A program made the position numbers and the translations under genes. DNA of 64,000 nt from assembly GCF_019263745.1 (NCBI RefSeq), contig NZ_CP077107.1:1674001-1738000 (forward strand), written 5' to 3'. The stretch's first letter is position 1. Each line of letters opens with the position of its first letter. This DNA comes from Methanospirillum hungatei. Its GTDB lineage: Archaea; Halobacteriota; Methanomicrobia; Methanomicrobiales; Methanospirillaceae. Below, one piece after another: positions 28,827-38,079 of this stretch. The notes below the pieces were generated by a model, which saw nothing but the letters and a program-made list of their open reading frames with translations, had not been told where the DNA came from and did no database searches.

Positions 28827-29795
28827 TCATGGATGAACCGAACGATGAATTCCTGCGCCAAGAAGGGCAGATGTAACAAAAGGAATTGCAATCGTCGCAT
28901 CACAAAAACACTGGACTTTCCTGCAGGTACATGACTCCTTACCCCAGGATACTGCTTCTTCAAATGTACAGCCGGAAAGTCCGCCATAATGTGGTGTATC
29001 TGTTGTATACTGGATCGCATAATCATGTCCCCCGCACACATGATCATGTATGGACGCAATAACCTGCGTTTGTTGAATGAAATTTTTCGGAACCCCCCCG
29101 CCTATATAGATGACGCCTGTTTTATGTGCCTGTTCTACATAACCGGTCAGCTGGTCTGCATCAGCTAACTGATCAATCATGATCTGGTAACCATCCCTTC
29201 GTGCCATCACAAGAGCGATTCCTATGGAGGAGTCGCACAGGGCAGGTATGAAAATGGGGATATTCAGACGGGCTGCGGTGGCAGTTACAGACTTTCCTAA
29301 AGGATATTGTTTTGTAAGCCAAATCCCAAGTTGTCTAATAAAATCTGCAGAAGAACCTGAAAAATCGCCTAGTCCCTGTGCGAACTCTGCAATTTTCGCA
29401 TCAACACCCCGAAACTGATCCTCATATGCAAACACATCATAAATCCGGTCAATCCCCTGTTTGAAGAGTTCCTGATCATCGGCCATATGATGTCCGAGAT
29501 AATGCCGAATACCCACATGTTCACAGATGTCATGAAAGATATTTGCCCCGGTTGATACCAGAACATCAATGAAACGGTTCTCAAGCAGCGCGATCAGGCA
29601 TTCCTGCATACCAGCTGGGATCATCGCACCAGACAGGCCGGCTAGAATCGAAACACCAGGTTCCTCAATCATCTGGCTCCATACCGCAACAGATTCTCCA
29701 AGCTTTCTACCCTGAAAGCCGGTCATACTCATCTGCTTCAGGAGTAAATCTACCCGGTTTTCCGGTTTAACCGGCTCCATGGGGTGAAGATTCAT
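28827..29795 (-). CDS. dys: Deoxyhypusine synthase
   Basis: A 322-residue NAD-dependent enzyme that transfers the aminobutyl group of spermidine to a lysine of aIF5A. Family segments include MTGFQGRKLGESVAVW, LAGLSGAMIPAGM, VSTGANIFHDICEH, DSSIGIALVMARRDG and the active-site lysine in YIGGGVPKNFIQQT, with HDYAIQYTTDTPHYGGLSG near the end. Its substrate spermidine is made by the SpeD/SpeE enzymes encoded at 13953-15233. It lies downstream of the CBS gene cluster on the same strand. Confidence 0.95.
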   Translation of the reverse strand: MNLHPMEPVKPENRVDLLLKQMSMTGFQGRKLGESVAVWSQMIEEPGVSILAGLSGAMIPAGMQECLIALLENRFIDVLVSTGANIFHDICEHVGIRHYLGHHMADDQELFKQGIDRIYDVFAYEDQFRGVDAKIAEFAQGLGDFSGSSADFIRQLGIWLTKQYPLGKSVTATAARLNIPIFIPALCDSSIGIALVMARRDGYQIMIDQLADADQLTGYVEQAHKTGVIYIGGGVPKNFIQQTQVIASIHDHVCGGHDYAIQYTTDTPHYGGLSGCTFEEAVSWGKESCTCRKVQCFCDATIAIPFVTSALLGAGIHRSVHP

Positions 29796-29839: not shown

Positions 29840-30619
29840 TTATAATGCCCGGATAAGGGATTCCCGGGTGACGATTCCAATAACCTTTCCATTATCTGTG
29901 ACTGGAAGGCTGCTGATGTTCTTTGAAAGCATTTTTGACACAACATCCGGAATAGTAACGTTCTTTTCAACGCTCATTACCGGAGCACTCATGATATCTT
30001 TTACCAGAATGTTACGGATCTGATGTTCCTGGTGCCGGTCATCTACTGCTTCACGGAACTTGGTGAGAGCGATAGCAACATCTGTCTCAGACACAAGACC
30101 TGCCATCTTGTTATCAGCCATGACAACGCATCTGGCAATTTTCTCATCAACCATTTTCCGACGGAGATGTACCATCCGTTCTCCTGCTTCAATTACATGA
30201 TGTGGATCAGTGACTGAGGAGAGATCCCCTTCTGGAACCATCTTTGCAAGTAAATCTCCGTATGAGACTTGGCCCACGATTTTGTTATCTCCATCATAAA
30301 CCACTGCAAGTTTTGCCTGGTTCTGAAGAAGCGGAATCAGAACATCAAGTTCCTGATCCTCATATACAATGGTAAATTCAGTATCAATCGTATTGGAGAC
30401 ATGAATCGCAGTAGGTGCAACTTCAGAGCTGTGTCTGGCACCAAGCTTTTCTACTATCTTCTGACGTGAAACAGTCCCAACAACTTCTCCCTGGTGAAGT
30501 ACCACCAGGGGGTCAAGTCCGGTATCAAGCATCTTATCTAAGGCATCAGTCACTGGTGCAGACTTTGCAACTGTGACTGGTTTTGCCATTACGTCTCGTA
30601 CAAGTATGGTATTGGTCAT
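29840..30619 (-). CDS. Four-CBS domain protein (third of an operon)
   Basis: A 259-residue protein made of two CBS pairs. Repeats begin at VRDVMAKPVTVAKSAP, IHVSNTIDTEFTIVYED, PHHVIEAGERMVHLRR and VKDIMSAPVMSVEKNV, each ending in the CBS signature such as GTVSRQKIVEKLG or GIVTRESLIRAL. CBS pairs bind adenosine nucleotides or SAM and regulate partner proteins. There is no catalytic domain. Its start overlaps the previous gene by four bases. Expression is probably coupled to the two CBS genes upstream. The ligand and partner are unknown. Confidence 0.85.
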   Translation of the reverse strand: MTNTILVRDVMAKPVTVAKSAPVTDALDKMLDTGLDPLVVLHQGEVVGTVSRQKIVEKLGARHSSEVAPTAIHVSNTIDTEFTIVYEDQELDVLIPLLQNQAKLAVVYDGDNKIVGQVSYGDLLAKMVPEGDLSSVTDPHHVIEAGERMVHLRRKMVDEKIARCVVMADNKMAGLVSETDVAIALTKFREAVDDRHQEHQIRNILVKDIMSAPVMSVEKNVTIPDVVSKMLSKNISSLPVTDNGKVIGIVTRESLIRAL

Positions 30620-31377
30620 TGAACCACTTCCCGTATTATGTCATCTCTGGTAATTATTCCTTTTACGCCATTCTCGCCGGAGATTATCACACTCTGGCAG
30701 GCGGTCTCTAACATGACCGCAACGGCTTCTCTGGTTCTCGCTGTTTCAGGAAGAGAAAGGATAGAAGAACGCATAATCCCCGCTGCAGTACCAGACCCTA
30801 CAGTATCAGGGTGATCTTCATAAAAGGCAAGATCAGTGTCAGTAATTATCCCGACAGCTCCTCCATCATCAACAACAATAACCGCTTCAGCTCCATTTTT
30901 AATCAGATCAACAACATGCCCATGGGAATGCTGTGGAGTAACCTGTACCGGTTCATGCATCAGTTCTGTAACCGGAACATCCAGTTTATCTACAATTTTT
31001 GAGCGCAGGATGTCAGTCCTTGTCAGGATTCCCAGCACCATGCCCTGGTCAATAACCGGAGCACCACTAATCTGGTGGGCCAGGAGGAGAAGGAGCGCAT
31101 CCCGAATGCTGCTATCCGGAGACAAACGTACAAGATCGGTACTCATCACCCGGATCAGTGGCTCATTATCGATCTGCCGGTGCCGCCATTGAGGATTATT
31201 TCTCCGTAACCGAAACCCGATATCCTTCTTTGTAATGATCCCAAGTGCGCGTCCATCTTCAATCACAAGGATCCTGGATATTTTATGTCTAAGCATCTGG
31301 TTACGAGCATATGATACCGTGTCATTCGGTTTAGCAGCATGAACTGGCGTAGACATCAGATCAGATACCAGCATCAC
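30616..31377 (-). CDS. Four-CBS domain protein (second of an operon)
   Basis: A 253-residue protein with four CBS motifs: VSDLMSTPVHAAKPND, RVMSTDLVRLSPDSSIRD, VTELMHEPVQVTPQHS and IMRSSILSLPETARTRE. Each is followed by a nucleotide-pocket strand such as LGIITKKDIGFRLR and GIITRDDIIREVV. It contains no other domain. The start codon directly follows the stop of the first CBS gene, and its own stop overlaps the start of the next. The arrangement suggests three proteins made together, perhaps in one complex. Function unknown. Confidence 0.85.
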   Translation of the reverse strand: MMLVSDLMSTPVHAAKPNDTVSYARNQMLRHKISRILVIEDGRALGIITKKDIGFRLRRNNPQWRHRQIDNEPLIRVMSTDLVRLSPDSSIRDALLLLLAHQISGAPVIDQGMVLGILTRTDILRSKIVDKLDVPVTELMHEPVQVTPQHSHGHVVDLIKNGAEAVIVVDDGGAVGIITDTDLAFYEDHPDTVGSGTAAGIMRSSILSLPETARTREAVAVMLETACQSVIISGENGVKGIITRDDIIREVVQ

Positions 31378-32253
31378 TTATCTCCTGCTCATTTCATTGG
31401 GTGAAAAAGCTCTTACCAGGTCAAATTCTGTAACAAGTCCAACAAGACGGCTCTGATCAATCACTGGAAGGGCGCCTACTTTTTTAGCCATCATCGCCCT
31501 GGCTGCATCAGTTACGGTCGCTTCTGAATTTGTTGTGAACAGATTGCCACTTAACAAATCCCTGACAGGAATACTCATAACCTCAGCCACATCTCCAGTG
31601 ACGAGTTTTTCAAACACCTTTCCAGAGCCAATATACCGGACAATATCAGTCGCGGTAATAATCCCAAATAAAATATCTTTTTTTACAATAGGGAGTCTTC
31701 TGAACTGGTGCTCAGTCATCACCTTGGTAACCGTAGCAAGCGGACAATCTGGTTGTTGAACCAGTAGTGAACGGGTCATCACATCTTCAACCGGAGTTGC
31801 TGCATGTGAACGACACAGGATTTTCAAGACATCACGTTCGGTAATGATACCATTGAGCACCCCCTCGTCATCAACAATGGGGATACCACCAATGCGGTCA
31901 CGTAAAATGATTTCAAGAGCTTCAGAAAGACTAGCGTCAGGGTGTAATGTCCTGACATCAGTCTTCATTATTTTGCTTACACTTTCATTTATTGCTGCGA
32001 GGAAATTCCCATCATGTTTGACATTAATGAGGTTGAAAAGTTCTCCACCGCCGAGAAAATCGATGACATCCCGTGCAGTAATAATACCTTTCAGCCGGTG
32101 AGTTCCTGGATCAACAATGGGCAGTCTGCGAAATCCCCATTGGGTAAGGGTCTCAATAGCGCCAAAGATCCGCATTGTCGGCGGTGCTGAGATCACCTTC
32201 GATGTTGCTATCGAAAGTACCGTTCTGTTACCGTTGTCATGATGTGAATTCAT
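31378..32253 (-). CDS. Four-CBS domain protein (first of an operon)
   Basis: A 291-residue protein with four CBS motifs. The first is degenerate (SKVISAPPTMRIFGAIETLT); the others are SKIMKTDVRTLHPDASLSE, VEDVMTRSLLVQQPDCPL and VRDLLSGNLFTTNSEAT. Pocket segments include LKGIITARDVIDFLGGGELF and NGIITERDVLKILC. It heads the three-gene CBS operon. The 245 bases upstream carry a TATA-like sequence on this strand at about 32345-32355 and GC-rich hairpins. The ligand is not predictable. Confidence 0.85.
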   Translation of the reverse strand: MNSHHDNGNRTVLSIATSKVISAPPTMRIFGAIETLTQWGFRRLPIVDPGTHRLKGIITARDVIDFLGGGELFNLINVKHDGNFLAAINESVSKIMKTDVRTLHPDASLSEALEIILRDRIGGIPIVDDEGVLNGIITERDVLKILCRSHAATPVEDVMTRSLLVQQPDCPLATVTKVMTEHQFRRLPIVKKDILFGIITATDIVRYIGSGKVFEKLVTGDVAEVMSIPVRDLLSGNLFTTNSEATVTDAARAMMAKKVGALPVIDQSRLVGLVTEFDLVRAFSPNEMSRR

Positions 32254-32344
32254 GGAGATACCAGCCTTCAGTTAGACGGTGAAAATGTATGGACATCCTG
32301 CTAATCCAAATAAGAAACAGACCAGCAGGTGTCCGGGTAAATTC

Positions 32345-32355
32345 AAAAATTTATA
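32345..32355 (-). promoter_or_regulatory. TATA-like element for the CBS operon
   Basis: On the minus strand GGAGGTATAAATTTTTG reads as a purine-rich stretch followed by a TATA box, about 92 bases before the start at 32253. The position would leave a leader of roughly 65 bases. It is the best box in this intergenic region, but it is assigned by eye only. Confidence 0.35.
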
Positions 32356-32359
32356 CCTC

Positions 32360-32377
32360 CGGACGGAACACCGTCCG
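32360..32377. repeat. GC-rich hairpin downstream of the CBS/zinc-ribbon gene
   Basis: CGGACGG-AACA-CCGTCCG forms a perfect 7-bp stem with a 4-base loop. A second, smaller hairpin (TCCGG-AAAT-CCGGA) lies at 32444-32457. Both are in the gap between two minus-strand genes and directly beside the TATA-like element, so they could stop the upstream transcript or bind a regulator. Confidence 0.45.
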
Positions 32378-32498
32378 AAACTCATGATGACAGTGTGCAA
32401 TTATTGAAACACGTCCTGTTATCAAAAACCGGCGGGTGTATATCCGGAAATCCGGACATAAGCATCCGGCATGGATGGCTTTTGTCAGCTGCAGCACC

Positions 32499-33074
32499 CT
32501 ATAACCGGTCATCTTCCATGCAGTTCGGACAGATGAGAGTTCCATCAACACTCGTCAGATCATCTGACATCTGTCCACATCTACTGCACATTCCTGAACT
32601 AATTTCGTCAGCACGGTTGATGACAACCAGCTCCCCCATTAGTTCATTGATCTCGGTACTGACTGCAACAATGTCCCGGACACTGACTATGCCAATCACG
32701 ACACCTTTTTCATTGATAATGGGCAATCTCCGGACCCTGTTATGGATCATCAGATGTGCAGCATCCTCAACGGTTTTATCTGTGCTAATCGTGATCAAGG
32801 GTGAAGTCATGATCTCACTGACATGAACTTCACTCGGGCGGAGATCCCGGGCGACAACCTTGCAGTTTATGTCCTGCTCTGTTACTATCCCCACAGCAAC
32901 GCCATCCTTCAGGACAATACAACTGCCAGATGGATCTTTACTGCACATTTTTCGTGCAGCATGCGCTACCGTTGCATGATAATCAATAGTCTTGGGGTTC
33001 GTTCGCATTATCTCCCGCACTGGGACCTTGGTCTCGAGCTGGATCGTGTCACTGTTATAGCTCATTACTGTCAC
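32499..33074 (-). CDS. CBS-pair protein with C-terminal zinc ribbon
   Basis: A 191-residue protein. It has one CBS pair (VREIMRTNPKTIDYHATV and VSEIMTSPLITISTDKT, with GIVTEQDINCKVVA and GIVSVRDIVAVS) and ends in a small zinc ribbon, CSRCGQMSDDL then CPNCMEDDRL. The ribbon suggests binding of nucleic acid or a protein partner. It is the fourth CBS gene in a row, but it is separated from the other three by 245 bases and probably has its own promoter. It is divergent from the GTPase operon at 33278. Confidence 0.85.
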   Translation of the reverse strand: MTVMSYNSDTIQLETKVPVREIMRTNPKTIDYHATVAHAARKMCSKDPSGSCIVLKDGVAVGIVTEQDINCKVVARDLRPSEVHVSEIMTSPLITISTDKTVEDAAHLMIHNRVRRLPIINEKGVVIGIVSVRDIVAVSTEINELMGELVVINRADEISSGMCSRCGQMSDDLTSVDGTLICPNCMEDDRL

Positions 33075-33182
33075 CTCTCGGTTTCCCGGGCAGATGCATT
33101 GCTCTGATACTTATCGGGATCGGGTATTAATCCATCGCTCCGGTGACCGGGTTATCAAATATTAAGATCCGAGACAGGTGGG

Positions 33183-33272
33183 ATGACAACAATAATAATA
33201 CTCCCTGATCATACCCTTGTAGACAGGCAGGCTTTTGTTGGCCTGATTTTTAAAAATAGCGCCGGGACGTAA
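33183..33272 (+). CDS. Possible 29-residue leader ORF before the GTPase operon
   Basis: An ATG at 33183 opens a 29-codon frame (MTTIIILPDHTLVDRQAF at its start) that stops five bases before the GTPase ATG. AGGTGGG precedes it, but with a very short spacing. It overlaps a small hairpin (CAGGC against GCCTG) followed by a T-run. It could be a leader peptide, a small protein or chance. I do not recognise it. Confidence 0.25.
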   Translation: MTTIIILPDHTLVDRQAFVGLIFKNSAGT

Positions 33273-33277
33273 CTACT

Positions 33278-33907
33278 ATGGGTATAAGCCAGACACTCTC
33301 GCGAATCCTATCAGGTCTTTTTCAGAAGAAAACCGCCCGCATTGGTATTTATGGCCCACCAAATGCGGGAAAAACAACTCTTGCAAACAGGATAGCTGAA
33401 GACTGGTCAGGAGCAATTTCTGGAACAACCAGTGAGGTGCCCCATGAGACCAGACGAGCAATAAGAACAGGAAACATTACCATAACCAGTTCAAATGGCC
33501 GCTCAATTACTATCGATATTGTTGATACACCCGGCGTTACCACCAGGGTTGACTATAAAGAGTTTTTAGAATACGGGATAGAACGGGAAGATGCGATAAC
33601 CCGGGCACGCGAAGCGACAGAAGGAGTTGCAGAGGCCATGCACTGGCTTAGAGAGGATATTGATGGGGTCATCTATATGATCGATGCAACCCTCGATCCC
33701 TTTGCACAAGTCAATATCATGATGATTGGTATCATCGAGAGCAGGAAACTGCCGGTGATTATCGCAGCAAACAAGATCGATCTTCCTGATGCGGCACCTC
33801 AACGGATACGAAGTGCATTCCCCCAGCATCCGGTTGTGCCGGTTTCATGTCTTGATGGAACCCAGATAGAAAGTCTCTATGAAGAGATGGTCCAGCATTT
33901 CAGGTGA
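33278..33907 (+). CDS. arvA: Small Era-like GTPase, OapA/ArvA type
   Basis: A 209-residue Ras-like GTPase. G1 is GIYGPPNAGKTTLANR, G2 falls near SGTTSEVPHETRR, G3 is VDTPGVTT, G4 is AANKIDLPD and G5 is VVPVSCLDG. It is the first gene of a three-gene set with a DUF2073 (OapB) gene and a zinc-ribbon (OapC) gene. In Haloferax the homologous GTPase drives formation of extracellular vesicles and was named ArvA (established knowledge, recalled). Role in this organism is inferred from family and gene order. The next gene overlaps its stop by four bases. Confidence 0.8.
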   Translation: MGISQTLSRILSGLFQKKTARIGIYGPPNAGKTTLANRIAEDWSGAISGTTSEVPHETRRAIRTGNITITSSNGRSITIDIVDTPGVTTRVDYKEFLEYGIEREDAITRAREATEGVAEAMHWLREDIDGVIYMIDATLDPFAQVNIMMIGIIESRKLPVIIAANKIDLPDAAPQRIRSAFPQHPVVPVSCLDGTQIESLYEEMVQHFR

Positions 33908-34275
33908 ATATCATGCAGGGTGTACGAATAGACCTCATATCTGAAGAACGGCTTGCCCAGATGGCTTCAATGGAAAAGATCAGGCTTATTCTGGATAATG
34001 TCCGTGAAGGGACCATAGTCATTCTTGAATCCGGCCTGACACCCGATGAACAATCTGTCCTTATTGAGATGACCATGCAGGAGATCCTTCCAGACGGTTT
34101 TTCCGGTATTGAGATTGAGACATATCCCTCAAAACAAAGAGGAACAAGTGTGTTCTCAAGATTTATCAGAGGAGATGATGAAAGCAGGAGACTGACAGTC
34201 ATCGGTCCTGCGAATCAACTCAAGATGATCCGCAAAGACAGGGGCCTTATCAGCGCCTGGATATCAGGTAGGTAA
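33904..34275 (+). CDS. arvB: OapB/ArvB family protein (DUF2073)
   Basis: A protein of about 123 residues of the DUF2073 family, always found next to the small GTPase in euryarchaea. It starts with GTG at 33904, overlapping the GTPase stop; an ATG at 33913 (MQGVRIDLISEERL) is an alternative. Characteristic pieces are GTIVILESGLTPDEQSVLIE, GIEIETYPSK and LTVIGPANQLKMIRKD. It has no membrane segment. It is likely a partner of the GTPase. The molecular function is unknown. Confidence 0.8.
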   Translation: MNIMQGVRIDLISEERLAQMASMEKIRLILDNVREGTIVILESGLTPDEQSVLIEMTMQEILPDGFSGIEIETYPSKQRGTSVFSRFIRGDDESRRLTVIGPANQLKMIRKDRGLISAWISGR

Positions 34276-34278
34276 TCG

Positions 34279-34653
34279 ATGCCCCATCGTTGCGCCGGCT
34301 GTAAAACCCTGTTCCCTGATGCCCGTCATCTCAGGGATGGGTGTCCGGTCTGCGGGTGTGGAAAATTTGTATTTGAAAATGGTAGGAGAAGGGAGGAACA
34401 AAAGGGGACCACCACTGAAGTTCAAGAATCAGCGCAACCTGATCTCTCTCAGGAAAAAGCTCATGACACAAAACCCGACTCAATTAACCAGGATCCGGAT
34501 TCAATAGAAAGCATCAGAATTATCGAACCTGGTCGGTATGATTTGAATCTGTCACGCCTGGCTGAATCAGATGACCGGGTAGTCAGGGTCGGAAGAGAGG
34601 ATACATACCGCCTTGATTTACACTCGATGATTCGGCAAAAAAAGAAAAAATAG
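34279..34653 (+). CDS. arvC: OapC/ArvC family zinc-ribbon protein
   Basis: A 124-residue protein with an N-terminal rubredoxin-like zinc ribbon (HRCAGCKTLF then DGCPVCGCGKF, residues about 3-30). A polar, probably disordered middle (about 40-85) follows. A short conserved C-terminal segment is IRIIEPGRYDLNLSRLAESD with DTYRLDLHSMI. This layout is typical of the third gene of the OapABC set. It starts three bases after arvB and ends tail-to-tail with aIF1. The C-terminal motif may bind the GTPase or ArvB; this is inference. Confidence 0.78.
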   Translation: MPHRCAGCKTLFPDARHLRDGCPVCGCGKFVFENGRRREEQKGTTTEVQESAQPDLSQEKAHDTKPDSINQDPDSIESIRIIEPGRYDLNLSRLAESDDRVVRVGREDTYRLDLHSMIRQKKKK

Positions 34654-34666
34654 CCTCTTTTATAAT

Positions 34667-34972
34667 TTAAGAGATATTATCCACCGCATATCCCTTTGTG
34701 CCAAGGAGATTGATAACCCTTTCACGGTGGTTACCCTGTAATTCTATGGAGTTGCCTTTCACCGTACCGCCACAGGCCAGTTTGCTCTTCATAAACTTTG
34801 AAAGATCTTCTAGATCAATGTCAGTCGGATCAAGCCCTTCAATAACGGTGACTTCTTTCCCGTACCGACGTTTATTCACTTTCACGTTTATTCGCTGCTG
34901 TTCTTTTGCAACTTCCTCACAGATACAGAGTTCCTTTGGTAGCCCACATATGGAGCAGATACCACCATTCAT
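34667..34972 (-). CDS. Translation initiation factor aIF1 (SUI1)
   Basis: A 101-residue SUI1-fold protein that monitors start-codon selection on the 30S subunit. The N-terminal segment [15 protein letters not shown] carries four cysteines and may bind zinc, as in many archaeal aIF1. The core is [40 protein letters not shown] and [20 protein letters not shown]. It is a single gene, convergent with arvC and divergent from cobyric acid synthase. Confidence 0.95.
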
Positions 34973-35103
34973 TACTTATTCCATCTCATGTTTTACTATT
35001 AAATGCTTATCATGAAATATCCCGGCATATTCCGGATTTTTCATATCTGTGGATGGAAGTGGTTGCTGCACTATATTATCTTCATCCATCATACCTGAGT
35101 TCT

Positions 35104-36543
35104 ATGTCTGTTATGGTCCTGGGGACCGCTTCTCATGTCGGGAAGAGCACAATGGTAGCCGGGCTTTGCCGTATCCTGCGAAGGCGTGGGATATCTGTTG
35201 CTCCATTTAAATCACAAAATATGAGCCTGAACTCCTGGGTAACCGAGGATGGGGGCGAGATCGGAATAGCCCAGGCAATGCAGGCATTTGCGGCATGCAT
35301 TCCCCCCTGTGTTGAGATGAATCCCATCCTTCTCAAACCAAAAGGAGACCAGTCATCACAAATTGTTCTCCTGGGAAAACCACACCACGATGTGTATGCC
35401 GGTGACTACTACAAAGTAACAGATAACCTCCTAACCGTTGCATTAAAAGCTGCAGAAACGCTCAAAAGCAGGTATGGTGCCCTCGTTGTTGAAGGAGCAG
35501 GAGGAGCTGCTGAAGTTAATCTTTTTGATCGTGATATCGCAAATATCGGTCTCGCTAGGGCACTTCGCTTTCCGATTATTCTGGTTGCAGATATTGAACG
35601 GGGAGGGGTATTTGCACAAGTATATGGAACAATCTCACTCCTTCCGGATGACATCCGCCCGCTGGTTAAAGCAGTCATCGTCAATAAGTTCAGGGGAGAT
35701 CCTGCACTTTTCTCAGATGGGATGAGAATCCTTGAGGACCTTACCGGTGTTCCTGCAATAGGTCTTGTACCAATGACAGATGTGGATATCCCCAGTGAAG
35801 ACTCCCTTTCATTGCAGGATAAAACAGCCAAAAGTGCTCCGGTTGAGATAGCCGTCATCCACCTGCCCCGGATATCCAACTTCACCGACTATGAGGTTCT
35901 TGAGCGGTATGCGTCGGTCAGGTATGTAAAACCCGGAACACCACTGACCGGTTTTGACGCCATAATTCTTCCAGGAACAAAAAACACCATTGAAGATCTT
36001 AAAGAAGTGATTGAGTCAGGAACAGGTGATGAGATCAAAAACGCCAGGGCTCAAGGAATCCCTATTATCGGTATCTGTGGTGGCTACCAGATGCTCTGCG
36101 AACGGATTCTTGATTCCGGGGTTGAGTCAAAAGAGGGAGAATACCAGGGCCTCGGTCTTATTCCCTGCACAACCACGTTTTCCGGGTATGAGAAGACAAC
36201 GGTGCAGGTGACACGCACATCATCAGGTTACGGACCATTTCTGGAAAAAATCGCATCAGTATCAGGATATGAGATCCATATGGGAACCACCTGCAGGGGT
36301 GAGATCAAAGAAGCATTTTCAGGAGAGGGAGTAGTCAGTGAAGATGGGCTGCTAATTGGAACCTATATGCACGGTCTTTTCACATCCCCTGATGTCGCTG
36401 CAGCATTTGTTGCCTTCCTCTGCGAACGGAAGGGACTTGCATGGACACCACCAACACAGGACAAGGATCCTTTTGATGCCCTCGCAGATCACATCGAGGC
36501 TCATGTCCGGATAGAGGAGATACTTCCCTTTTTTAGCCGATAA
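35104..36543 (+). CDS. cbiP: Cobyric acid synthase
   Basis: A 479-residue glutamine-dependent amidotransferase of cobamide synthesis, amidating four side chains of adenosylcobyrinic acid diamide. The dethiobiotin-synthetase-like N domain begins [18 protein letters not shown] (P-loop) and continues [12 protein letters not shown] and [13 protein letters not shown]. The amidotransferase half shows [13 protein letters not shown], the nucleophile Cys in [11 protein letters not shown] and the His in GTYMHGLF. I chose the ATG at 35104; an upstream in-frame start at 34906 would overlap aIF1. Methanogens need cobamides for methyl transfer. Confidence 0.95.
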
Positions 36544-36793
36544 CATTCATGATGCTGCGAAAACCTTCCAGTCCTGCATCATCACATACCACACTGATGA
36601 CTTTTTTGAGGTCAACTTCTTCAGTTGCCCGGCTCATGGTGCAAAAAGCCCGGGCAGGGGATGGGATCTCTTTTCCAGGGATGCCAAACCGTACCGAATG
36701 AACACAAAACCTGCATTTTTCGATATCTTCACGTTTCGTAGGAAGACAGGCAACCGTTCCCATCTCAACCGGGAGGGTTCGTGTCGTTCTCAT
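36533..36793 (-). CDS. Small cysteine-containing protein, unknown
   Basis: An 86-residue soluble protein that I do not recognise. It has five cysteines: one in [11 protein letters not shown], a pair in [13 protein letters not shown], one in AFCTMSR and one in VVCDDAG. The CxxC and spacing suggest zinc or an Fe-S cluster. Its ATG at 36793 overlaps the stop of the coiled-coil gene by four bases, and its own stop lies inside the last codons of cbiP on the other strand. The tight coupling suggests it works with the coiled-coil protein. Function unknown. Confidence 0.65.
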
Positions 36794-38079
36794 GTATCTT
36801 CACCTGGGAGCGTAAGATCCATCTCCTCTTCGGTAAATTCAGAAAAATTCTTTTTCAGATCTTCAAGGATGGTTTTTTTTCTTTCATTCAGGGATGAGAG
36901 TCTCTCTTTTTGCTTCTCCTCTTCCTGGTTCATCTCATCTATCCTTTTTTGTGCTTCACCAATGGTCTGGGCGATGTGATTCTTCTGATCCAGGGTTGGA
37001 TTTTTTTCAAGTTCTTTTCTCTTATTGTTCAGTTCACCAGAGAGGGTGTGCAGACTGGTGGATATCTCACTGAATTTTTTTGCATATTCATCAGCTGATG
37101 TGAAAAGATTCTTTTCAAACGAGTTCTTTGCCTGTACGGTTCCCGACTCGAACAGAGTGAAGAGAGGTTTTGCCGTCAAGGAAACCAGTCGTGCCATCTC
37201 ATCGTCATCACGACGGGGTGACGAGGCCTGTTGAATGAGATCCTCCATGTTCTTTTCATCTACTGGTTTTGCCTGTTCCTGGAAGGCTTTCACTGCTCTC
37301 TTCCATACCGGGATTGCAATTCGGATCTGGGACTCCCATGTTTCACTGGCTTTCTCTATCTGCTGTCTGAGCTTTTCGGTCTCATCTTCAAGATGCAGAT
37401 ATGAGGCATAGAGATCTGAAGCAACCAGATGCTCCATCTCTGACTCGGCTTTTTGGAGTTCTGTTCTGAGTTCAGATAACCGGATTTCATATTTTTTCTC
37501 TTCTGCATCTGCCCGCGAATCCTCCTCAATCAGGGCATCCCGTTCATGCAGGAGATCACGCATTTCAGCAATGTGCGTGAGACGTTCTCGTGAAATACGA
37601 ATTACCTCGGTCATACGATTCATTTCGTGACCCATCTGATCCAGGGTTTGTTTAAAGACCTTCACTTCATCTGGGTAGAGATGGTGCAGGTACTTGCCCG
37701 GCCCCCGGTACGCCTTAAAACACCCGTTGATAAGTCCGGCAACTTCCCGATAAAAGATCTCATCATCCTCTGAGAAATCACCTTCAAGTTCAGATTCTAT
37801 CTTTTTACAGAACTGGGGGAGAGCGTGACGGTTGACCTGCTCCACTTTGTGGTGATGGGGTTCATCTGATGACTCATCGCCAAATTCTGTCAGAAGCTGG
37901 TGAAGATCCTGTTCAAGTTTCAGGAGTCTTTCACGTGAACTCGTGGATGCTGCATTCCGGCGGGAGATACAATCTGCTTCCTTCTCATCAAGCCAGGCAG
38001 GGAGTTCTTCCAGTGATATCGCTGATTTTGATACTTTTTCTGATGTTTTGCTGAATATTTTTTTTATTGATTCAAACAT
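36790..38079 (-). CDS. Long coiled-coil protein, unknown
   Basis: A 429-residue soluble protein dominated by charged helices. Residues about 145-275 and 325-410 have long heptad-like runs (for example RLSELRTELQKAESEMEHL and ERKKTILEDLKKNFSEF). A more globular middle part lies near GLINGCFKAYRGPGKYLHHL. There is no membrane segment, P-loop or enzyme motif. It may be a structural or scaffolding protein, similar only in style to SbcC/SMC arms. It is coupled to the small Cys protein downstream and lies 11 bases after nadM. Confidence 0.7.
   Translation of the reverse strand: MFESIKKIFSKTSEKVSKSAISLEELPAWLDEKEADCISRRNAASTSSRERLLKLEQDLHQLLTEFGDESSDEPHHHKVEQVNRHALPQFCKKIESELEGDFSEDDEIFYREVAGLINGCFKAYRGPGKYLHHLYPDEVKVFKQTLDQMGHEMNRMTEVIRISRERLTHIAEMRDLLHERDALIEEDSRADAEEKKYEIRLSELRTELQKAESEMEHLVASDLYASYLHLEDETEKLRQQIEKASETWESQIRIAIPVWKRAVKAFQEQAKPVDEKNMEDLIQQASSPRRDDDEMARLVSLTAKPLFTLFESGTVQAKNSFEKNLFTSADEYAKKFSEISTSLHTLSGELNNKRKELEKNPTLDQKNHIAQTIGEAQKRIDEMNQEEEKQKERLSSLNERKKTILEDLKKNFSEFTEEEMDLTLPGEDT

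Follow-up and report, generated by a model that had tools for sequence, protein, structure and literature searches.

An ArvABC operon in a Methanospirillum-type methanogen: gene set, class of the ArvA GTPase and upstream region

Introduction

Which role does a gene set tied to vesicle formation in Haloferax play in a sheathed methanogen, and what kind of GTPase belongs to it? Few vesicle systems of archaea have genetic support, and ArvABC is among them. According to the consulted part of PMC10927574, the RNA-associated vesicles of Haloferax are abolished by arvA knockout, while vesicle counts rise 3.5-fold upon arvA overexpression, fall 3.13-fold upon arvB deletion and rise 1.65-fold upon arvC deletion; ArvA itself is enriched in the vesicles. 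The survey in the same part of that paper finds ArvABC spread over many archaeal phyla, including Halobacteriota and Methanobacteriota; of the genomes that carry ArvA about 95% have ArvB too, which is directly downstream in 93%. The class of ArvA is left open there, Arf being the nearest profile match; in the consulted text potassium and glutamine do not occur and EngA occurs once. The word "methanogen" has no occurrence in the main text, in which "methano" is found three times (two of them in Methanobacteriota, the third in the title of a reference). Neither a test of a vesicle role of ArvABC in the order of Methanospirillum nor vesicle data on this genus were found in the open-licence literature, and the sheath of the host raises the question whether ArvABC always means released vesicles.

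We analysed a stretch of 64,000 nucleotides, called the window below, from a Methanospirillum hungatei genome that consists of a single contig of 3,393,136 bases.

Results

The ArvABC gene set

33278-33907, plus strand: arvA, small GTPase of 209 amino acids (coordinates include the stop codon)
33904-34275, plus strand: arvB, OapB/DUF2073 protein (PF09846), 123 amino acids from a GTG start
34279-34653, plus strand: arvC, OapC/DUF2072 zinc ribbon (PF09845), 124 amino acids

A preliminary description of this DNA had recognised a GTPase, a DUF2073 protein and a zinc-ribbon protein as the ArvABC set and had called the three genes overlapping or nearly touching. The family models and the gene order uphold the former statement and the exact coordinates agree with the latter: arvA and arvB overlap by 4 bases, and a gap of 3 bases separates arvB from arvC (arvB could also start at an ATG at 33913). 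Pfam returned PF09846 alone for ArvB (3e-45) and PF09845 for ArvC (4.1e-34), and ArvA matched GTP_EFTU (7.2e-15), MMR_HSR1 (1.2e-13) and Arf (1.4e-7); among the NCBIfam models the general small_GTP domain model was the only one above the cut-off for ArvA. ArvA is a single-domain small GTPase with motifs G1 to G5, and the intact G motifs ascribed to it earlier are indeed all present (GPPNAGKT, HETR, DTPG, NKID and SCL). ArvB lies directly 3' of ArvA, ArvC follows within two genes, and the four cysteines C5, C8, C22 and C25 of ArvC are invariant in 17 aligned rows. The synteny that had been suggested as a check holds in relatives as well: the A-B-C order is kept in 18/18 related loci, with a contig end cutting ArvA in L016 and ArvC in L010. 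The full-length identity of arvA is 93-94% in four congener loci and 78-79% in another four.

At 33278-34653 this Methanospirillum-type methanogen carries an ArvABC operon. The set itself is already published (PMC10927574) and the locus adds one further member to it; beyond the published set we observe a clade devoid of ArvB, the signature of K+-activated GTPases in ArvA and a CBS-domain neighbour.

PF09846 is present in 19 of the 21 nearest genomes and in 187 of 196 genomes, each at least 85% complete, sampled across the phylum. Among the best 80 of 565 loci from an ArvA profile search, ArvB was found in all 80, and 52 also gave a match to ArvC. Of the other 28 loci, many belong to Methanosarcinaceae, for which the query may be too distant, since the Pfam model does find ArvC in Methanosarcina acetivorans. 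The survey of the host family, Methanospirillaceae, covered 81 genomes of 14 genera, each genome at least 80% complete: ArvA occurs in 77 genomes and 14/14 genera, ArvB in 42 genomes and 12/14 genera. The four family genomes without ArvA are 85-90% complete. None of the three proteins was matched in genomes G021, G030 and G040, which are 85-90% complete and belong to one genus (f7/g20).

The class of the ArvA GTPase

33353-33388, plus strand: P-loop of ArvA, GPPNAGKTTLAN, with N29 and N37, the asparagines that mark K+-activated GTPases
33524-33538, plus strand: G3 motif DTPGV of ArvA, with hydrophobic V87 at the position of the catalytic Gln of Ras
33281-33334, plus strand: weakly amphipathic N-terminal helix segment (ArvA residues 2-19)

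Arf proteins have a catalytic Gln in DxGGQ and an Ala at the P-loop position. ArvA of the window, with its DTPGV, has no Gln after DxxG, and the same is true for the whole set of 158 ArvA that we compared (the window, 77 other genomes and the best 80 of the 565 loci; the incomplete L016 was left out): the catalytic Gln is found in 0/158, DxPG is followed by Leu, Val, Met or Ile in 158/158, the P-loop Asn (GxxNxGK[TS]; N29 here) is present in 155/158 and the Asn five residues after the P-loop Lys (N37 here) also in 155/158. Two asparagines together with a hydrophobic residue in place of Gln are described for the K+-activated TrmE-Era-EngA GTPases in the consulted parts of PMC3466195 and PMC6310460. 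From this active site of the MnmE/Era/FeoB type we infer that ArvA hydrolyses GTP in a K+-dependent manner via dimerisation of its G domain and does not follow an Arf-type cycle; the two asparagines and the missing Gln predict the K+ dependence.

The comparison with proteins of known structure points in the same direction. In a search of the PDB sequences with a 17-row ArvA profile, Der (1.9e-11) and TrmE (3.2e-9) rank above Arf, whose best chain reached 1.3e-6; other hits, such as adenylate kinase and RecA, which match over the P-loop, are interspersed. The alignment with TrmE is collinear at positions 6-207. The fold search by VIA-align was done with the G domain of a model of the relative L121, in which ArvB is attached to ArvA as a pseudo-fusion and which derives from a shallow alignment (pTM 0.58; pLDDT of the G domain block 71-92), and not with the window protein. 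MnmE with K+ came first (2gj8, Z 18.7, 2.6 A over 157) and was accompanied by Era (3iev, Z 18.1), followed by a mix of GTPases at 16-18 (LepA 17.5, FeoB 16.9, Arl6 16.8, ARL1 16.5). MnmE leads the Arf-like folds by about 2 Z, and a pre-60S factor, LepA and mitochondrial ribosome rows (Z 16.9-17.6) stand between them, so the fold rank alone is a weak argument. The hydrophobic moment of the N-terminal helix is borderline in the window (0.41, matched by 6.8% of shuffles), and in 12 relatives it is 0.47-0.71 in nine and 0.32-0.43 in three.

One would argue, as the Haloferax authors suggest, that ArvA is an Arf-like protein for which ArvC is the zinc-finger GAP and ArvB the exchange factor. The signs of the Haloferax knockouts agree with this scheme (loss of ArvC gives more vesicles and loss of ArvB fewer), Pfam does return an Arf match for ArvA, and in the consulted part of PMC10927574 the profile search ranks Arf top and ArvA is structurally similar to Arf1, though with a different dimer interface. 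However, the catalytic Gln of such a cycle is missing throughout the sequences compared above, and Arf is outranked by Der and TrmE in sequence and by MnmE and Era in fold. The genomes that lack ArvB speak against the scheme from another side.

A clade without ArvB

ArvB gave no match in two genera of the host family, g11 (7 genomes) and g12 (31 genomes), that is, in 38/38 genomes searched. This makes an obligatory exchange factor unlikely, and we regard the Arf-like scheme as a whole as unlikely. The clade is a natural knockout by which the proposed exchange-factor role of ArvB can be judged. ArvA is retained in 7/7 genomes of g11 and in 28/31 of g12, and 20 of these 35 loci were read (g11 7/7, g12 13/28). 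In all 20 of them ArvC starts 4-28 bases past the ArvA stop, which leaves no room for ArvB between the two, and a separate Pfam search confirmed ArvC in 4/4 genomes of the clade that were tested. Two matches in L091 had hinted at a second ArvC there; this was dropped, as the locus has a single frame of 168 amino acids.

ArvA, ArvC and CBS1 of 59 loci were concatenated (two incomplete loci were omitted), and in the midpoint-rooted tree the 20 loci without ArvB fall into one group with a support of 0.971. This fits a single loss, and ArvB was apparently lost once in a sister clade of the same family. As ArvA and, in every locus read, ArvC are kept, ArvB is not essential to the action of ArvA there. 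We also set the 20 ArvB-less ArvA against 40 ArvA of the order from loci that do have ArvB (the truncated L016 was omitted), and counted a site as relaxed if its residue is conserved in 85% or more of the ArvB-bearing group but in no more than 30% of the ArvB-less one. Two sites alone qualify, R63, replaced by K, and Y99, replaced by F; besides, a 4-residue N-terminal extension is present in 16/20 of the ArvB-less proteins. In this comparison of 20 with 40 no loosened conservation is seen and no ArvB interface is readable. A takeover of ArvB's place by the cell-division protein SepF was considered and rejected, as each of the 11 genomes searched, ArvB-less or ArvB-bearing, has a single SepF match and there is no sign of a second copy.

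The structure of ArvB was modelled with a pLDDT of 74.5 and a pTM of 0.67. Foldseek returned no match to this model at E <=0.001, and the best 50 rows of VIA (Z 4.7-6.6) are a mixture of SepF, SpoVS, Alba, IF3-C, RNase P subunits and unrelated enzymes. The ArvA-ArvB pseudo-fusion, based on 16 loci with arvA and arvB in one frame, reached a pTM of 0.58 and gave no confident arrangement of the two proteins.

The region upstream of arvA

33183-33272, plus strand: frame of 29 codons that ends five bases before the GTPase ATG, unsupported as a leader gene
33186-33213, plus strand: conserved non-coding block, promoter-like, 21 of 28 columns invariant in nine congeners

The frame of 29 codons does lie in front of the GTPase gene as the preliminary description had it, but the role of a leader that was attached to it did not withstand comparison, because its start is not conserved and it overlaps a promoter-like element. 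Nine congeneric loci, the window among them, were compared upstream of arvA. If the frame were a leader peptide controlling the translation of arvA, one could point to the ATG that four of the nine share, the window included, with the first eight residues identical in all four. Against this, four congeners have ATA and one has ACG, the ends of the frame differ, and in L010 it is open into arvA. Furthermore, when the 203-base intergenic region is shuffled by mononucleotides, 10% of the shuffles give a frame of at least 29 codons ending at most 20 bases from the arvA start, and the surrounding 10 kb are overlapped by 133 ORFs of at least 25 amino acids.

The conserved bases belong instead to the promoter-like element. 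It contains 14 invariant columns in a row (33186-33199, nine congeners), and 0 of 20,000 column shuffles yield a run as long; its core TAATAA (33193-33198) lies at -85 to arvA. The ATG of the frame (33183, -95) is on the upstream side of this core and would stay untranscribed. Of 50 family loci, 40 have TAATAA 5' of arvA, at distances of -72 to -116 (for loci with two copies the outer one was taken), whereas 2.5 loci are expected by shuffling and 0.8 from tiles of the same loci. At -82 to -90 it stands in 27 loci with one position counted per locus and in 29 counting second copies; these distances rest on the arvA start codons chosen for each locus. AAAC[CA]TAATAA occupies the core position in many ArvB-less loci. 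TAATAA is absent 5' of arvA in 10/50 family loci and occurs in 1/10 loci of the order's other families (1.0 expected), so it is at most a feature of the family. We thus regard a leader peptide as highly improbable, and the block as promoter-like: it may be the BRE/TATA of an arv promoter or a family-specific operator. The 28-base pattern has one occurrence in its own genome at up to 3 mismatches and hence no multi-site regulon is seen, and Rfam gave no match at the gathering threshold over 32000-35500.

Two other invariant runs of the intergenic region in the nine congeners, 33089-33099 and 33125-33137, possibly belong to the divergent CBS promoter.

Neighbouring genes

32499-33074, minus strand: CBS-domain protein with a C-terminal CxxC..CxxC stretch, divergent from and head to head with arvA
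31378-32253, minus strand: CBS-domain gene continuing the divergent cluster
30616-31377, minus strand: CBS-domain gene continuing the divergent cluster
29840-30619, minus strand: CBS-domain gene continuing the divergent cluster
34667-34972, minus strand: SUI1/YciH-type translation factor, convergent with arvC
36790-38079, minus strand: protein of 429 amino acids, no Pfam match

Apart from the window, this divergent CBS gene adjoins arvA in 58/58 loci of the order with enough flank (L016 and L114 were left out because of contig ends), and outside the order it does so in 6/18 families, represented by one locus each. Among the best 80 of the 565 loci it is the neighbour in seven, namely five of Methanocellales/Methanocellaceae, one of Candidatus Mnemosynella and one of an unclassified Euryarchaeota; two Methanosarcinales drafts in the same set carry a different CBS gene no more than about 2 kb upstream, in L156 a CBS match lies at 3 kb upstream, and L154 and L216 are uninformative with less than 700 bases upstream. 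The Archaeoglobaceae, Methanosarcinaceae, Methanoperedens and Methanothrix loci of this set have no CBS gene next to arvA. CBS genes accompany arvABC in more than one order. CBS has no mention in the main text of PMC10927574, and among the titles listed by a literature search on archaeal CBS gene clusters none was on arv.

This conserved neighbour suggests a regulatory input to ArvABC. A diadenylate cyclase is among the notable vesicle proteins of Haloferax in the part of PMC10927574 consulted, and cyclic-di-AMP as the CBS ligand is a lead, nothing more. A diadenylate cyclase domain is found in 10/10 genomes, which gives no discrimination. It would be a rather doubtful step further to assume that ArvA is a K+-activated GTPase firing by dimerisation at the membrane, free of an exchange factor and an Arf-type GAP, and that the CBS proteins, as likely nucleotide sensors, couple vesiculation to the adenylate/cyclic-di-AMP state. 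Since no exchange factor or GAP would be needed in such a system, one methanogen clade could delete arvB.

On the other flank, SUI1 accompanies arvC in only a part of the host family and in 0/20 ArvB-less loci, 0/10 loci of the order's other families and 0/18 outside the order. The four consecutive CBS genes (29840-33074, minus strand) adjoin a gene for deoxyhypusine synthase (28827-29795). The protein of 429 amino acids (36790-38079) has a tblastn identity of 60-78% in three congener loci and of 26-40% in four.

Discussion

By analogy with Haloferax, the role of ArvABC in Methanospirillum would most likely be membrane vesiculation. ArvA, one GTPase domain with a short helix at its N-terminus, would cycle at the cytoplasmic membrane and, like its Haloferax relative, make vesicles bud outward, its GTP hydrolysis being K+-dependent and triggered by dimerisation of the G domain; ArvB would favour budding and ArvC would restrain it. 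The operon would be read from a promoter with the TATA-like core at 33193-33198, giving a predicted transcript start at about 33218-33225 and a putative 5' leader of about 50-60 bases, and no leader peptide would be involved in its expression. This whole reading, an ArvABC operon with its own promoter and a K+-type ArvA that buds vesicles, we consider fairly probable.

An older, non-secretory role of ArvABC in sheathed and other methanogens, such as shaping of the division membrane or handling of RNA and ribosomes, with vesicles as a haloarchaeal outcome, is conceivable and deserves some weight, though we think it less than probable. Each hoop of the M. hungatei sheath is called well sealed in the part of PMC10593813 consulted, in which "vesicle" refers to gas vesicles, and released vesicles would need an exit through them. 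The best structure-bearing sequence relatives of ArvA include GTPases of tRNA modification and ribosome assembly, the ArvB model fits SepF, SpoVS, Alba and IF3-C equally, and in the window and in some loci of the family SUI1, a translation factor, is the neighbour of arvC. However, this SUI1 neighbourhood was seen in the host family alone, a Z of about 6 for ArvB is uninformative, and the vesicle effect in Haloferax is strong, with ArvA enriched in the vesicles themselves. According to the consulted part of PMC12134362, Methanobrevibacter smithii forms vesicles, reportedly without the GTPase; ArvA is thus not needed for vesicles in every methanogen.

The first name of the system, origin-associated proteins, would place ArvABC at the replication origin: Pfam names the families OapB and OapC, and the consulted part of PMC10927574 recalls an association of OapA with an origin. 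The same part reports that an earlier mutant study could give OapA no distinct function, and in the present genome the two Orc1/Cdc6 genes above the cut-off (contig positions 2,094,612 and 864,765) are about 387 kb and 842 kb away from arvA (1,707,278). An action at the origin is hardly credible here. A plasmid search with ArvB gave no match.

The preferred reading, ArvABC with a K+-type ArvA, can be set beside several known systems. The ArvABC (OapABC, HVO_3014-3012) of Haloferax volcanii consists of the same three families in the same order; in contrast to it, the present locus is not beside Orc1 and is flanked by the divergent CBS cluster. The model of ArvB can be superimposed on SepF (Z 6.6, 2.7 A over 74 residues), but this match is tied in Z with the SpoVS, IF3-C and Alba rows, Pfam does not return PF04472 (SepF) on ArvB, and SepF exists separately in the genomes searched (11/11). 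With Arf, Arl and Sar1, ArvA shares the fold of the G domain (Z 16-17), an N-terminal helix and, by analogy, the vesicle role, and it differs from them in the absence of the catalytic Gln and in the Asn of the P-loop where Arf has Ala. With MnmE, Era, EngA and FeoB it shares GxxNxGK, the Asn at Lys+5 and the hydrophobic residue after DxxG; its HETR aligns with the TTR switch motif of TrmE, and MnmE and Era are its best fold matches. In contrast to these proteins, which carry extra domains, ArvA is a lone G domain.
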